The translations under genes were made by a program, and so were the position numbers. Source: Capsulimonas sp. (GTDB lineage Bacteria; Armatimonadota; Armatimonadia; Armatimonadales; Capsulimonadaceae). Taken from it: DNA of 10,804 nt. Below, piece after piece: positions 1 through 6,890 of the stretch. How positions within the stretch are numbered: the stretch's first letter is position 1; each line of letters opens with the position of its first letter. Location: contig JAOQAA010000529.1 in assembly GCA_025963815.1 (NCBI GenBank), positions 1 to 10,804 on the forward strand, given 5' to 3'. The notes under the pieces were generated by a model. The model saw only the letters and a list, made by a program, of their open reading frames with translations, was not told the DNA's origin and did not search any database.

Positions 1-1188
1 ATCCGCCAGCGCGCCGCCGACCGGCCGGAGGAACGAACCCGCAATGATGAAGGGCCAGGTCCACAGACCGACAGTCGCCTTGGGCGCATCGTACTGATCG
101 ACGAAGAACGTGTTGAAGAAGCTGGACATTCCGACGAAGCCGCCGAAGGTGACAAAGTACAGGATGCAGAAGTACCAGGCGTCGGGCTTGGCGAGAACCG
201 CCGCGTAATCGGCGGCGCGGGCCGGACGAACCTGTCCTGGGGGATCCTTGGCGAGCACGGCGAAGGTGACGAGCACGATCACGACCGGGATCATCAGAAA
301 ACCGAAGACCTCATGCCAGCCGTAAGCTTTGGCGAGCATCGGAGCAAAGAGTGTGGCGAGAACCGTTCCCGAGTTACCGGCGCCGGCGATGCCCATCGCC
401 AGGCCCTGAAGGTGAGGCGGATACCACCGCGAGGCGAGCGGCAGCGCCACGGCGAAGGATGCGCCGGCCAGTCCTAAGAAAAACGCGACGAACACCAGTG
501 AGTTGTACGAAGTCGCCATCTGGAAACCGACGGCCAGGGGCAGCAGCGTAAAGAACATGGAGGCGACGCCGACGCGCTTGGAGCCGAAGCGGTCCGCGAG
601 AACGCCCAGCAAAATTCGCCAGAAGCCCGCCGCGAGCAGCGGGATACCGACCAGCAGCAGCTTGGTGGACGCCGGATACCCGTTCGCGATCGGCTGGAAC
701 GTCTTACCAGCCTTCGCCAGCGCCGCGGCGGGCTTGAGGGCGATCACGTTCTCGTTCGGGTTGCCATGCGCTCCGGGAGCGACTTCGATATGGATGAGCT
801 TGGAAGTCGCGTTCACGGCGGCGATGGTGGCGGGGTTCGCGTTGTCCACCACGAACTTCTCGACGGGCTTGACGCTTGCCTTGGTGGCGACACCCGGCGC
901 GCCGGGTTTGATCAGCAGGTTATAAACGTTCTTCGGCTGATCGGCCGCGAGTTTCGGATTCTGCTTGACGGTCTGCGGCCCCTTGATCAGCATCGTGTAC
1001 TGTTCGCCGGTCTGCACCTGCGCGGTGGGCGTCACCTGGAGGTTCTGTCCGGTAAGGGATGGGTCGGTCATGATGAAGGGCATGAGCGCCCCTAAAATCA
1101 CCCACACCATGAAGGAAATATCGAAGTGCAGGAAGGCGCTGAAGAGCGACGGGGCGTGCCCGCTTTGTTTCAAATCACTGAGTTTCAC
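1..1188 (-). CDS. narK: NarK/NasA-type nitrate (nitrate/nitrite) transporter, MFS NNP family, 3' end outside window
   Basis: 396 codons are visible without a stop and the gene continues past base 1. Start chosen: GTG at 1188, preceded by AGGAG with an 8-nt gap. It is an inner-membrane major-facilitator protein of the nitrate/nitrite porter family. TM1 is around residues 20-41 (HFDISFMVWVILGAL). TM2 begins near 174 and carries FWRILLGVLADRFGSKR, where R191 fits the first substrate-binding arginine of NarK (E. coli Arg89). The family glycine signature GAGNSGTVLATLFAP is at 269-283. A second conserved arginine, R388 in FLRPVGGALAD at the window edge, fits E. coli Arg305. The role is nitrate uptake (possibly nitrite exchange) for the reductase encoded upstream. 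Oddity: about 130 residues are inserted between TM1 and TM2, where the family normally has a short loop. Assimilatory rather than respiratory use is inferred from the neighbouring reductase. Confidence 0.9.
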   Translation of the reverse strand, partial: MKLSDLKQSGHAPSLFSAFLHFDISFMVWVILGALMPFIMTDPSLTGQNLQVTPTAQVQTGEQYTMLIKGPQTVKQNPKLAADQPKNVYNLLIKPGAPGVATKASVKPVEKFVVDNANPATIAAVNATSKLIHIEVAPGAHGNPNENVIALKPAAALAKAGKTFQPIANGYPASTKLLLVGIPLLAAGFWRILLGVLADRFGSKRVGVASMFFTLLPLAVGFQMATSYNSLVFVAFFLGLAGASFAVALPLASRWYPPHLQGLAMGIAGAGNSGTVLATLFAPMLAKAYGWHEVFGFLMIPVVIVLVTFAVLAKDPPGQVRPARAADYAAVLAKPDAWYFCILYFVTFGGFVGMSSFFNTFFVDQYDAPKATVGLWTWPFIIAGSFLRPVGGALAD

Positions 1189-1329: not shown

Positions 1330-1397
1330 GGCGACAGTGCCGAAGGGGTGCGTCAAATCTGACGGGGAATTGAACAGCGGCGACAATGCCGCTGTTC
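1330..1397 (-). promoter_or_regulatory. Putative ANTAR-type two-hairpin leader RNA of the nitrate transporter
   Basis: Seen on the minus strand just after the predicted transcription start (about 1404). Hairpin 1 (1397-1372) is a perfect 10-bp stem, GAACAGCGGC / GCCGCTGTTC, around the hexaloop ATTGTC. After a 30-nt linker, hairpin 2 (1341-1330) has a 3-bp GGC/GCC stem around the hexaloop ACTGTC. Known: ANTAR-domain antiterminators such as NasR bind paired hairpins whose hexaloops have A at position 1 and G at position 4, and nitrate-assimilation operons are a classic target. Both loops obey the rule. Inferred: an ANTAR protein, perhaps with a nitrate-sensing domain, controls read-through into the transporter gene. 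Weak point: the second stem is short (a C-A mismatch follows the three G-C pairs), and no clear strong terminator follows. Confidence 0.55.
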
Positions 1398-1410: not shown

Positions 1411-1442
1411 AGTATAGAAGAGGGATGTTTCGGGAATGTTTC
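1411..1442 (-). promoter_or_regulatory. Transporter promoter with GlnR/OmpR-type direct-repeat activator box
   Basis: Minus strand: GAAAC (1442-1438), 6 nt, GAAAC (1431-1427), 10 nt, then the -10 box TATACT (1416-1411). As a wider unit it is two tandem 11-bp repeats of CGAAACATYCC. There is no -35 hexamer, because the second repeat lies in its place. Known: OmpR/PhoB-family activators bind 11-bp direct repeats replacing the -35, and actinobacterial GlnR boxes have the form gTnAC-n6-GaAAC-n6. The same arrangement, with identical spacing, precedes the reductase operon. Transcription would start near 1404, right before the first leader hairpin. Confidence 0.7.
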
Positions 1443-3296: not shown

Positions 3297-5372
3297 TCAA
3301 GCTTTCCCAATACTCACGGCGCAAATCTTAAACTCAGGCATGCGGGACGTGGGATCAAGCGCATCGTTGGTAAGCAAATTCGCCCGGCCTTTACCCGCCC
3401 AGTGAAAGGGAACGAACACGGTATCCTGCCGGATCGACGGGGTCAGCCGCGCCTTGGCTTCCGCAGCTCCCCGGCGGGTGGCGAGACGAACCATGTCACC
3501 CTCAGCGATGCCGAAGCGGCGAGCGAGCGATGGATGGATCTCCACAAACGCCTCGGGCGCATTGGCGCGCAGCTTTTCGACTCGGCGTGTCTGCGTCCCG
3601 GACTGATACTGCGCCATCACGCGCCCCGTGGTCAGGTAGATGGGGTACTCATCGTCGGGCTCCTCGGCGGCGGCCTTGTGGGCGATGGGGTAGAACTTCG
3701 CCCGTCCGTCGTCGGTGGCGAACTTGTCTAAAAACATACGTGGCGTGCCGGGATGCCCTTCGGACGGACAGGGCCAGAAGACGCCGTCCTGCGCGGCGAT
3801 CCGCTCGTAGGAGATGCCGGCGTAGTCCGCCGCGCCGCCGGCGCTGGCGCGGCGCAGTTCTTCAAAGATCTCCCGAGGGCGCTCGGTGAAATATTGGCCC
3901 GCCCCGAGGCGGTCGGCGAGCGCCTTCAAAATCTGGGCGTCGCTGCGCACGCCCGGCGGCGGGTCCATCGCGCGGCGACGCAGCAGCACGCGGCCTTCAA
4001 GATTGGTCATCGTCCCCTCTTCCTCCGCCCACTGCGTCACCGGCAGCACGACATCGGCGCGCGCCGCCGTTTCCGAGAGAAAGATATCCGAGACGACTAA
4101 GAAATCGAGCGCGTCCAGCCGTTCTTCAATATGGCTCGAACGCGGCGCGGAAACGACCACGTTGGAGGCCGCCACCATCAGCGCGCGGACGCCGCCAGGC
4201 GTTCCCAGCGTGTCCAAAAGCTCATATGCCGAGCGTCCTGGCCCGGGAATGGAGGCTTCCTCCACGCCCCAAACACCGGCGATATACGCCCGGTGCGCGG
4301 GGTTGTCGATCTTGCGGTATCCAGGCAGTTGATCGGCCTTTTGCCCATGCTCACGCCCGCCCTGGCCGTTCCCCTGCCCCGTCAAACAGCCGTAGCCGCA
4401 GTGCGGCTTGCCGGCCTTGCCTAAGGCTAGCGCCAGATTGATAAACGCCTGGACATTCTCCACGCCCTTGCTTTGCTGCTCGGCGCCGCGCGCCGTCAGC
4501 ACCATCGCCGTCGCGGCCTCGCCCATCAGGTGCGCCGCTTTGGTGAGATCCTTGACGGGGACGCCGGTGATGCGCTCGACTCGATCCGGCCAGTAGGAGG
4601 CGATCACACGGCGCACGGCGTCGAACCCGGTCGTGCGCGCTTCGATGAAATCATGATCGAGCAGACCGTCGGCCATCGCGATGTGCAGCAGTCCGTTGGC
4701 GAGCGCACCGTCGGTTCCCGGCGTGATCTGCAGGAACACGGCGGCGTTTTGCGCGGTCGGCGTGCGCCTCGGATCGGCGACGATCAAATGGCCGCCCCGA
4801 TTGCGATGCTCCTCGAAATACTGCATGATCGGCGGCATCGTCTCTGCGGGATTGCTTCCAATGAGAAGTATCGTCTCCGCGCCGGGGATGTCTTCTAATG
4901 GGAACGGCAATCCTCGGTCGATCCCAAACGCCTTGATCCCGGCGGCCGCCGCCGAGGACATGCAAAACCGCCCGTTATAGTCGATGTTAGGTGTGCGCAA
5001 GGCGACTCTGGCAAATTTGCCCAGCATATACGCCTTTTCATTGGTGAGGCCGCCGCCGCCAAAGATCCCCACCGAGTCCAGACCGTACTTCTGCTGCGCG
5101 AGCCGTATCTCCGTCACGATTCGGTCCAGCGCTTCGTCCCAATCACACGGGCGCAGCTCGTCGCCCTTGCGATCCCGGATGTACGGCATGGTCAGCCGGT
5201 CGGGGTGCGCAAGCAGGTCCGTGCTGGTCCAGCCCTTTTGGCAAAGACCGCCCTTGTTCGTCGGAAAGTCCGGGCGCGCGGCGACCGTGAGCAGATCCCC
5301 GTCGGGAACCAGGTTCATGCCGCATTGCAGAGCGCAGTAAGGACAGTGGGTGGCGGTGGCGGACGGCGTCAT
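3297..5372 (-). CDS. nasA: Assimilatory nitrate reductase, catalytic molybdopterin subunit (NarB/NasA type)
   Basis: 691 residues, cytoplasmic (no Tat signal). It reduces nitrate to nitrite at a Mo-bis-MGD centre. The N-terminal [4Fe-4S] site is C10-x2-C13-x3-C17-x26-C44 (HCPYCALQCG ... GGLCQKG). The likely Mo-ligand cysteine is C137 in NGRFCMSSAAAAG, as in NapA and assimilatory reductases. Further family blocks are LLIGSNPAETMPP, the run GYGCLTGQGNGQGGREHG, and a C-terminal dinucleotide-binding domain starting near YLTTGRVMAQYQSGTQTRR. The length matches cyanobacterial NarB and Bacillus NasC. It lacks the C-terminal [2Fe-2S] extension of Klebsiella NasA. The ATG at 5372 overlaps the upstream stop codon as TAATG, preceded by GAGGGG, so it is translationally coupled to the 146-residue protein. 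No flavoprotein or ferredoxin donor is encoded in the window. Confidence 0.92.
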   Translation of the reverse strand: MTPSATATHCPYCALQCGMNLVPDGDLLTVAARPDFPTNKGGLCQKGWTSTDLLAHPDRLTMPYIRDRKGDELRPCDWDEALDRIVTEIRLAQQKYGLDSVGIFGGGGLTNEKAYMLGKFARVALRTPNIDYNGRFCMSSAAAAGIKAFGIDRGLPFPLEDIPGAETILLIGSNPAETMPPIMQYFEEHRNRGGHLIVADPRRTPTAQNAAVFLQITPGTDGALANGLLHIAMADGLLDHDFIEARTTGFDAVRRVIASYWPDRVERITGVPVKDLTKAAHLMGEAATAMVLTARGAEQQSKGVENVQAFINLALALGKAGKPHCGYGCLTGQGNGQGGREHGQKADQLPGYRKIDNPAHRAYIAGVWGVEEASIPGPGRSAYELLDTLGTPGGVRALMVAASNVVVSAPRSSHIEERLDALDFLVVSDIFLSETAARADVVLPVTQWAEEEGTMTNLEGRVLLRRRAMDPPPGVRSDAQILKALADRLGAGQYFTERPREIFEELRRASAGGAADYAGISYERIAAQDGVFWPCPSEGHPGTPRMFLDKFATDDGRAKFYPIAHKAAAEEPDDEYPIYLTTGRVMAQYQSGTQTRRVEKLRANAPEAFVEIHPSLARRFGIAEGDMVRLATRRGAAEAKARLTPSIRQDTVFVPFHWAGKGRANLLTNDALDPTSRMPEFKICAVSIGKA

Positions 5373-5882: not shown

Positions 5883-5894
5883 GGCGACACTGCC
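5883..5894 (-). promoter_or_regulatory. Third copy of GGCANTGTCGCC, in the leader of the reductase operon
   Basis: Minus strand GGC-AGTGTC-GCC. It is the same 12-mer as the two in the transporter leader (only loop base 2 differs among the three), in the same orientation, shortly after the predicted transcription start (about 5901). It can form a 3-bp stem with an A1/G4 hexaloop. No clear partner hairpin with an A1/G4 hexaloop is visible nearby. A neighbouring 9-bp stem with one mismatch (around 5903-5926, loop GTATTG) does not fit the rule. Confidence 0.5.
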
Positions 5895-5907: not shown

Positions 5908-5939
5908 ACAATACTATGTGCGTGTTTCCGAACTGTTTC
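5908..5939 (-). promoter_or_regulatory. Reductase-operon promoter with GlnR/OmpR-type direct-repeat box
   Basis: Minus strand: GAAAC (5939-5935), 6 nt, GAAAC (5928-5924), 10 nt, then TATTGT (5913-5908) as -10. The repeat spacing and the distance to the -10 are identical to the transporter promoter at 1411-1442, and no -35 hexamer is present. The shared layout points to a single activator controlling both transcripts. Confidence 0.7.
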
Positions 5940-6217: not shown

Positions 6218-6362
6218 CCCGCTCCCCGCCCGCGACAGTAATTTTTGTCTCGGTCCCCCTTGAAGCCGGTTTTCCCAGATAGCGCCGACGAGAGCCAACC
6301 GCCCAGCCCGTGGAATTTTCACGATCAGGCTAACTCTTGTTTTTTGTTATTTGGAGAAGATT

Positions 6363-6890
6363 TTGGTTTCCAGTTATTCCTATGACCGCGCTCGCTACGG
6401 CGACCGCGAAGCCCGAGAGGCGCTTGTCGCCCGCCTACGACCGCGCATGGCCAAGATGGCCGCGCACTACGCCCGCTGCACCAACGAAAACGCGGACGAT
6501 CTGCTCCAGGAAGCCTGGGTCGGGTTGCTCGACGCCCTGACGCAAATCGATATCTCGATCGGGGATCCCGATCAGTATCTGCTCAAGCACGCCCGGTGGC
6601 GCTTGCTCGACGCCGTCAAGCGATGGCGCCGGCGCCGCTGCGAATTACTGGAGGACGAACAGGTCGCCGCCATTCCGTCGTCGATGGATTGGAACGACGT
6701 GCAGACGGACCTGAGCATCCGCGCCTTCACGGGCGGCCTCAAGCCCACCCAGCAGGCGGTCCTCAAGTCGCTCCTGCGCGGCATGACCTGGCGCGAAGCC
6801 GGCGATGAGCTCGGCTGCTCCAGCGCCAACGTTGCGTACCACGTCAAGCAGATCCAGCGGCAGTACCAGGAATGGAGCGCCGCCGGATAA
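6363..6890 (+). CDS. RNA polymerase sigma-70-family (ECF-like) sigma factor
   Basis: 175 residues from TTG at 6363, which has GGAG 6 nt upstream (6353-6356). A longer in-frame TTG at 6351 would place that ribosome site inside the gene. Region 2 (about 10-92) carries the core-binding motif ADDLLQEAWVGLLDAL and the DNA-melting segment DQYLLKHARWRLLDAVKRWR. Region 4 (about 125-168) has the helix-turn-helix GMTWREAGDELGCSSANVAYH, used to read the -35. Regions 1 and 3 are missing, as in ECF factors. It directs core polymerase to a dedicated promoter set. No anti-sigma gene is adjacent, and a strong terminator follows at once, so it is a single-gene unit. Its targets cannot be told from here. Confidence 0.85.
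   Translation: MVSSYSYDRARYGDREAREALVARLRPRMAKMAAHYARCTNENADDLLQEAWVGLLDALTQIDISIGDPDQYLLKHARWRLLDAVKRWRRRRCELLEDEQVAAIPSSMDWNDVQTDLSIRAFTGGLKPTQQAVLKSLLRGMTWREAGDELGCSSANVAYHVKQIQRQYQEWSAAG

Follow-up and report, generated by a model that had tools for sequence, protein, structure and literature searches.

Organization of the nitrate gene cluster

The window, i.e. the whole stretch of 10,804 nucleotides analysed here, is one contig (C404) of a genome (G000) of 4.77 Mb in 734 contigs, which is 69 % complete. Its minus strand carries genes encoding a nitrate/nitrite transporter (narK), a porin and, as a pair, a protein of 146 amino acids and an assimilatory nitrate reductase (nas; Table 1). 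The reductase contains the Pfam domains Molybdopterin, Molydop_binding and Molybdop_Fe4S4, and its closest named relative, with 76 % identity, is from an uncultured Armatimonadetes bacterium, which fits the guess of a preliminary description of this DNA that the genome belongs to Armatimonadota. The 146-amino-acid protein is perhaps a helper of the nitrate reductase; its homologues precede nas in six genomes of the order (that of the window and five others). A second copy of this protein (49-56 % identity) is found near nirB or narK in several genomes.

The C-terminal end of narK was found at the end of another contig of the genome (C148, 14600-15052), on which the cluster appears to continue. 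There the narK piece is accompanied by nirB, a nirD-like gene and then, 282 nt beyond the latter and on the same strand, a gene encoding an OmpR-type regulator. The identity of NirB was tested on the orthologue from a genome of the same genus, G001 (TIGR02374, above cut-off), while NirD was just below the cut-off of TIGR02378. The gene order nirB, narK, porin, nas is also present in G001, where the cluster lies on a single contig of 7.6 Mb.

Further features were observed around these genes. A strong inverted repeat with arms of 25 nt, 88 % complementary, occupies positions 1476-1538 of the window, between the end of the porin gene and the narK promoter, and a small gene resembling sigma70-ECF factors (6351-6890, plus strand) diverges from the nas promoter. 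Genes for a nickel/cobalt transporter-like protein, a histidine kinase and a canonical OmpR regulator (locus L117, 4862-7807, plus strand) are convergent to the nirB, nirD and regulator genes.

Table 1 Coordinates of genes, promoter elements and leader hairpins in the window
Feature	Position	Strand	Remarks
narK-type nitrate/nitrite transporter gene	1..1188	-	TIGR00886, 1.3e-55, below family cut-off; truncated at contig end
narK leader hairpin P2, GGC-ACTGTC-GCC	1330..1341	-	hairpin search of leaders
narK leader middle hairpin, CGTC-AGATTT-GACG	1351..1364	-	by eye; 9 nt before P2
narK leader hairpin P1	1372..1397	-	10-bp stem, hexaloop ATTGTC
narK -10 hexamer, TATACT	1411..1416	-	10 nt downstream of box
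narK GlnR-type box, GAAAC-N6-GAAAC	1427..1442	-	exact match; orthologue in G001
Assimilatory nitrate reductase catalytic subunit gene (NasC/NasA type)	3297..5372	-	NF047855, 2.7e-257, below curated cut-off
First gene of nas operon, 146 amino acids	5372..5812	-	without Pfam or NCBIfam match
nas leader hairpin P2, GGC-AGTGTC-GCC	5883..5894	-	hairpin search of leaders
nas -10 hexamer, TATTGT	5908..5913	-	10 nt downstream of box
Nitrate reductase operon GlnR-type box	5924..5939	-	exact match

Promoters of narK and nas

The preliminary description held that both nitrate promoters consist of GAAAC-N6-GAAAC, 10 nt and a -10 hexamer, without a -35, and exact matches bore this out. Read on the minus strand, the narK promoter (1442 down to 1411) is GAAAC-ATTCCC-GAAAC-ATCCCTCTTC-TATACT and the nas promoter (5939 down to 5908) is GAAAC-AGTTCG-GAAAC-ACGCACATAG-TATTGT. 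No -35 was found at either one, the best match to TTGACA with spacers of 15-19 nt being 2/6 for narK and 1/6 for nas. These are the only exact occurrences of GAAAC-N6-GAAAC in the whole window. When up to two mismatches were allowed, the window was not enriched (10 matches vs 9.1 expected from shuffles); what counts is therefore that the matches are exact, where they lie and that both have the same distance to the -10.

The pattern GAAAC-N6-GAAAC-N10-TANNNT has three exact matches in the genome and none for the reversed control pattern. All three precede nitrate/nitrite genes: two are the narK and nas sites of the window, and the third, on another contig, belongs to nirB. This is the outcome that the preliminary description had predicted, the motif being neither common nor unrelated to nitrogen genes. 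A scan with one mismatch added three further sites against three for the control, which is not above chance.

A GlnR-like regulator encoded beside nirB and nirD

A GlnR-like OmpR regulator had been postulated in the preliminary description, and the gene that follows nirB and nirD encodes a protein that clusters with actinobacterial GlnR. Its only Pfam match is Trans_reg_C (PF00486, 9.5e-22), the C-terminal winged helix of OmpR. The best solved structures were 8hig, 8hih and 8hml, ahead of PrrA; these three were taken as GlnR because they are also strong matches of an Amycolatopsis protein that matches 4o1h ('Transcription regulator GlnR').

Relatives at E 1e-22 or better were found in 56 of 151 Armatimonadota genomes. 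A tree with 103 rows placed 53 of the 55 Armatimonadota sequences in one clade with six actinobacterial GlnR and two SAR202 sequences (support 100/99), and this clade of 61 rows stood apart from the 42 other rows; the sequences of G039 and G052 fell among ordinary regulators. The G012 hit (which has an internal stop), the second-ranked hit of G025 and the Micromonospora orthologue were outside the tree. With the DNA-binding domain alone the GlnR clade was not recovered (four label changes), and a single origin was still compatible with the result.

The Asp of the receiver pocket is retained in 45 of the 53 Armatimonadota members of the clade, the first position of the acidic pair in one, Thr/Ser in two and Lys in two, and eight members lack even the Asp. 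In the alignment the regulator of the window's genome has kept the Asp and lost the acidic first position, the Thr and the Lys. The corresponding counts, in the same order, are 6/6, 0/6, 0/6 and 0/6 for actinobacterial GlnR and 39, 39, 40 and 38 for 40 other OmpR proteins. Passages in PMC10704036 and PMC12632262 describe the Asp of GlnR as serving dimer formation without phosphorylation. Together, the tree, the pocket and the box make the protein a predicted member of the GlnR family.

Within about 3 kb of the regulator gene, glnA was found in 17 clade members, nirB in nine and amt in two, counts that are lower bounds because the stretches reach 1.5 kb or more unless the contig ends. The box lies between the regulator gene and glnA in G040, G053, G089 and G094. 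A kinase gene is present near the GlnR-like gene in G000 and G001, but directly before another, canonical regulator gene. Neither a box nor glnA was found in the loci examined for the GlnR-like genes of SAR202.

Distribution of the box in Armatimonadota

Summed over 61 genomes, the exact pattern gave 40 matches vs 4 for the reversed control, and with N10 or N11 allowed the summed counts over 151 Armatimonadota genomes were 84 and 21. Both gaps were then varied, giving 87 rows among the matches listed, 59 from genomes with the regulator and 28 from genomes without it. In the former, 29 rows had gaps of (6,10) and eight of (6,11), the other 23 cells holding 0-5 each; in the latter the gap spectrum was flat, with one row at (6,10). 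Regulator and box occurred together in 37 of the 151 genomes, the regulator only in 17, the box only in 14 and neither in 83 (Fisher p 3.5e-11, with G012 counted as regulator-bearing and G039 and G052 not). Thus an exact box was missing from 17 of 54 regulator genomes, and the regulator, at the cut-off, from 14 of 51 genomes with a box.

The sites examined with their surrounding DNA comprise 83 distinct ones, since one genome holds two identical sites; two of the 83 end less than 350 nt from a contig end. Core nitrogen genes follow 47 of the 83: amt (15, two amt genes having two boxes each), glnA (14), nas (7), nirB (5), narK (3) and glutamine synthetase II (3). The distance from box to gene, or to the first gene of the operon, was mostly within about 360 nt, with three sites at 600-680 nt. 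At L300 and L304, although the glnA alignment overran the box, a start codon is present 44 or 42 nt past it. Eight further sites precede genes for a circularly permuted ATP-grasp protein (3), PEP carboxylase (2), a DHH/DHHA2 protein (2) and an NMT1-type protein (1). Pfam was run on one representative per type for amt, glnA, glutamine synthetase II and these four further targets. No target was assigned to the remaining 28 sites, 15 of which are in regulator-bearing genomes. By a hand tally, core nitrogen targets account for 45 of 68 sites in regulator-bearing genomes vs 2 of 15 elsewhere (Fisher p 2.8e-4).

Outside the search pattern, an A follows the first GAAAC at 37 and the second at 43 of the 47 core nitrogen sites, whereas among the 28 unassigned sites the numbers are 11 and 10. 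At the eight sites before other metabolic genes this A is present in only three and two cases, respectively, and some of these sites are therefore possibly not real. Most sites consist of two half-sites; upstream half-sites at -11, -22, -33 and -44 were seen in 4, 2, 3 and 4 of the 47.

In both of two genomes of one genus (G007 and G010), the box precedes amt (twice, about 540 nt apart), glutamine synthetase II, PEP carboxylase, the circularly permuted ATP-grasp gene and the DHH/DHHA2 gene (L128 9173, L275 1462 and 5028, L271-L274, L204, L122, L127). This hints at a wider regulon.

The expectation that the box would be found before glnA, amt and nir genes thus held across the phylum and failed for amt and glutamine synthetase near the lineage of the window. 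There, seven genomes (six from the window's order, and G025 from another family) provided 23 amt and glutamine synthetase loci, and the box was present at none of these in the DNA examined; the window's own genome contributed an amt, but no such glutamine synthetase. The boxes found near this lineage all precede nitrate/nitrite genes. In two other genomes of one genus, G009 and G016, in which the regulator is absent at the cut-off, GAAAC-N6-GAAAC is followed after 8 nt by TAAGGT, in nearly identical form (G009:C270:4255-4284, G016:C460:17746-17775).

Comparison with GlnR and NnaR of Actinobacteria

To our knowledge, GlnR, a family of nitrogen master switches, has so far been studied in Actinobacteria. 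A scan of 59 nitrate loci from Actinobacteria (1.2 Mb) for G..AC-N6-G.AAC followed by TANNNT, with gaps from 4 to 21, gave 12 sites with a gap of 10, one with a gap of 13 and none with any of the 16 remaining gaps. Half-site gaps of 5 or 7, with GAAAC as the second half-site, did not occur in these loci. All 12 sites with gap 10, each of which precedes a narK-like gene (25-30 % identical), come from Micromonospora and are hence related rather than independent. The geometry common to Armatimonadota and Micromonospora suggests the same mode of action. Upstream of nas, within 400 nt, the box was found 0 times in exact form and once in loose form, in a Chloroflexota locus; none was found there in the 59 actinobacterial loci, perhaps because nas is often inside an operon.

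The Armatimonadota system resembles that of actinobacterial GlnR in that the regulators share one clade, that the Asp is mostly retained and the remaining pocket lost, that the direct repeats have the form 5 + 6 + 5 bp, that the targets are nitrogen genes and that 10 nt separate the box from a -10-like hexamer, as at the 12 Micromonospora narK-like promoters. It differs in belonging to another phylum, in having mostly a single box per promoter, in the position of the regulator gene by glnA or after nirB and nirD and, near the window's lineage, in the restriction of the boxes found to nitrate/nitrite genes. Both half-sites are GAAAC(A) here, partly as a result of the search pattern, whereas the actinobacterial box is given as gTnAC-n6-GaAAC in a passage of PMC10704036.

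NnaR, an orphan regulator of nitrate genes, is likewise of the OmpR type. NnaR has a HemD-like domain ahead of its DNA-binding domain, whereas the regulator described here has no HemD domain, PF00486 being the only one found with Pfam. In Streptomyces and mycobacteria, NnaR is presented as a nitrate regulator working with GlnR (a passage in PMC6277429).

Hairpins in the leader RNAs

Twelve leaders were compared: those of narK, nas and nirB from G000 and G001, of nas and nirB from G002 and G006 and of nas from G004 and G017. In eleven of them a hairpin P1, whose loop begins the series 20-25 nt past the -10, is accompanied by a hairpin P2 of the form GGC-RNNGNN-GCC, whose loop is found at 67-81 nt; both are hexaloops with a purine at position 1 and G at position 4. 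The exception is the nas leader of G000, in which P1 is absent and which is 95 nt long vs 150 nt in G001. The P1 stem of G001 narK has one mismatch. Loop position 1 is G, not A, in 3 of 11 P1 and 3 of 11 P2 loops. In several leaders a middle hairpin was recognized by eye 8-11 nt before P2.

Hexaloop hairpins with R1 and G4 and a stem of at least 3 bp numbered 30 in the leaders vs 9.2 in 200 shuffles (maximum 18), and those with A1 only 20 vs 4.1 (maximum 12), although these counts are not independent since the leaders are related. In the 11 aligned leaders, four of six pairs of the P1 stem changed on both sides, and the covariation score and the double-change cells exceeded those of 500 out of 500 shuffles, while two other measures for P1 were unremarkable (69 and 377 of 500 shuffles as high). 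P2 is invariant and thus uninformative on covariation.

A covariance model run against the 151 genomes recovered all 11 training leaders (E up to 6.7e-6) and 19 weaker matches (E 1.6e-4 to 0.05), of which the one inspected, in G025 of another family (E 0.011), is a narK leader that has a 9-of-10 box with the same geometry, 257 nt before the start. Rfam gave no match in the window. The sequence CGGCANTGTCGCC, common to the leaders, was considered as a DNA operator and rejected, its exact genome matches being 10 vs 5 for the control, with 4 of the 10 in three leaders; as the stems change yet still pair, an RNA hairpin is the better reading of it.

Pairing of the P2 3' arm with the sequence ahead of the start codon exceeded that in shuffles for 4 of the 12 leaders, which did not include any from the window's genome, and hiding of the ribosome site was therefore rejected as a general rule. 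The leaders' own pairs averaged 6.7 vs 6.0 for cross-genome pairs.

ANTAR proteins and similarity to ANTAR targets

According to passages in PMC3369931 and PMC8164766, hexaloops with A1 and G4 mark ANTAR-target RNAs, such as the nasF leader bound by NasR, and the linkers measure 5-12 nt for eut RNAs and 2-25 nt for an actinobacterial set. The leaders resemble ANTAR targets (nasF/NasR, amiE/AmiR, eut/EutV) in their small hexaloop stems with a purine, mostly A, at position 1 and G4, in the covariation of P1 and in the receiver-ANTAR protein of the same genomes. They differ from them in the distance between P1 and P2, which is 35-44 nt in the 11 leaders having both as against shorter linkers, in the G at loop position 1 of some hairpins and in that no clear terminator was seen in the leaders.

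ANTAR proteins were found in all 13 genomes searched. An extra receiver-ANTAR class, set by identity rather than by a tree, is 59-96 % identical to its G001 member and present in G000, G002, G004, G006 and G017, which together with G001 are the nitrate genomes of the window's order. The best ANTAR proteins of G003, G005, G007 and G010 have about 52 % identity to the G001 member, and a second ANTAR protein of G004 reaches 54 %. In G001 and G017, a distance of 2-3 kb separates the gene of this extra class from one for an ammonium transporter, and a gene for a beta-barrel porin-like protein is also found nearby (L344, L338, G001:C1:5186136, G017:C133:18668).

Discussion

The two sites in the window are predicted operators of a GlnR-family regulator that would activate nitrate uptake and nitrate/nitrite reduction, a reading to which we give a probability of about 0.8. 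The regulator would be an OmpR-type protein with a pseudo-receiver, probably independent of phosphorylation, whose dimer would sit head-to-tail on the two GAAAC half-sites, spaced by 11 bp, in place of a -35 and recruit RNA polymerase to the -10. All three steps, from the uptake of nitrate through its reduction to that of nitrite, would in this way be switched on together, presumably at nitrogen shortage. The computed observations behind this reading are the sites, their link with nitrogen genes over the phylum, the clade and pocket of the regulator, its co-occurrence with the box and the geometry in Micromonospora; from them we infer binding, dimerization, activation as opposed to repression, and the signal. 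As the candidate reader of both promoters, the GlnR-like regulator is supported.

Repression by the same protein at the same sites appears improbable. Actinobacterial GlnR is also a repressor of some genes, according to PMC4140684, but the promoters here have no -35, and a protein on the box, 10 nt upstream of the -10, would be placed so that it could contact the polymerase as an activator. Slightly less probable still is that another OmpR-family protein binds the box, for example the canonical, kinase-partnered regulator encoded in the convergent neighbourhood (L117, 7106-7807, plus strand). That protein is of the OmpR type, with MtrA as its best NCBIfam model (below cut-off), and in G000 and G001 its gene adjoins the GlnR-like gene and has the histidine kinase gene before it. 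However, only these two genomes gave the kinase gene at an identity of at least 80 % among the loci examined, whereas the box and the GlnR-type gene track each other over the phylum and four genomes have the box between the GlnR-type gene and glnA.

The sigma70-ECF-like gene adjoining the nas promoter could be taken to mean that GAAAC serves as a -35 for an alternative sigma factor, possibly the product of this gene. We regard this as very unlikely: the spacers from GAAAC to the hexamer would be 10 or 21 nt, the motif is a pair of direct repeats 11 bp apart, and no homologue of the sigma-like gene was found in the 37 kb around the G001 cluster. Chance resemblance, with which the background level of the window at up to two mismatches would agree, deserves as little credence, being contradicted by the excess of matches over the control in the 151 genomes, by the peak in the gap spectrum and by the target genes.

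Since the leaders carry ANTAR-like hairpins, the GlnR-type promoters may be only half of the control. Two-step control, with GlnR-type initiation followed by an ANTAR-like leader, is likely, the second step being the weaker claim; in it, the hexaloop hairpins of the leader RNA would be bound by the receiver-ANTAR protein. More specifically, but only tentatively and at somewhat less than even odds, an old GlnR-type master regulator of nitrogen metabolism in Armatimonadota may have been supplemented on the nitrate genes with a second, newly wired lock, composed of an ANTAR-like leader with hexaloop hairpins far apart and a dedicated receiver-ANTAR protein; in some genomes P2 would in addition compete with a helix that covers the ribosome site. 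The genes would then open only at nitrogen shortage in combination with nitrate or another signal.

The GlnR regulon and the ANTAR leader are each of a known kind. Apparently new are the phylum, the neighbourhood in which the gene lies and the combination of GlnR with ANTAR, none of which was found in the open-licence literature searched; that search returned no report of an OmpR-type GlnR in Armatimonadota (titles and starts of abstracts) and none of an ANTAR domain together with Armatimonadota. If the proposed reading is true, the nitrate genes couple GlnR-type initiation to ANTAR-like RNA control, and a little-studied phylum gains a nitrogen regulator, its operator and its target genes at once. 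The GlnR family would then either predate Actinobacteria or have been passed beyond them, and its origin and its signal would become testable amid other gene neighbourhoods.
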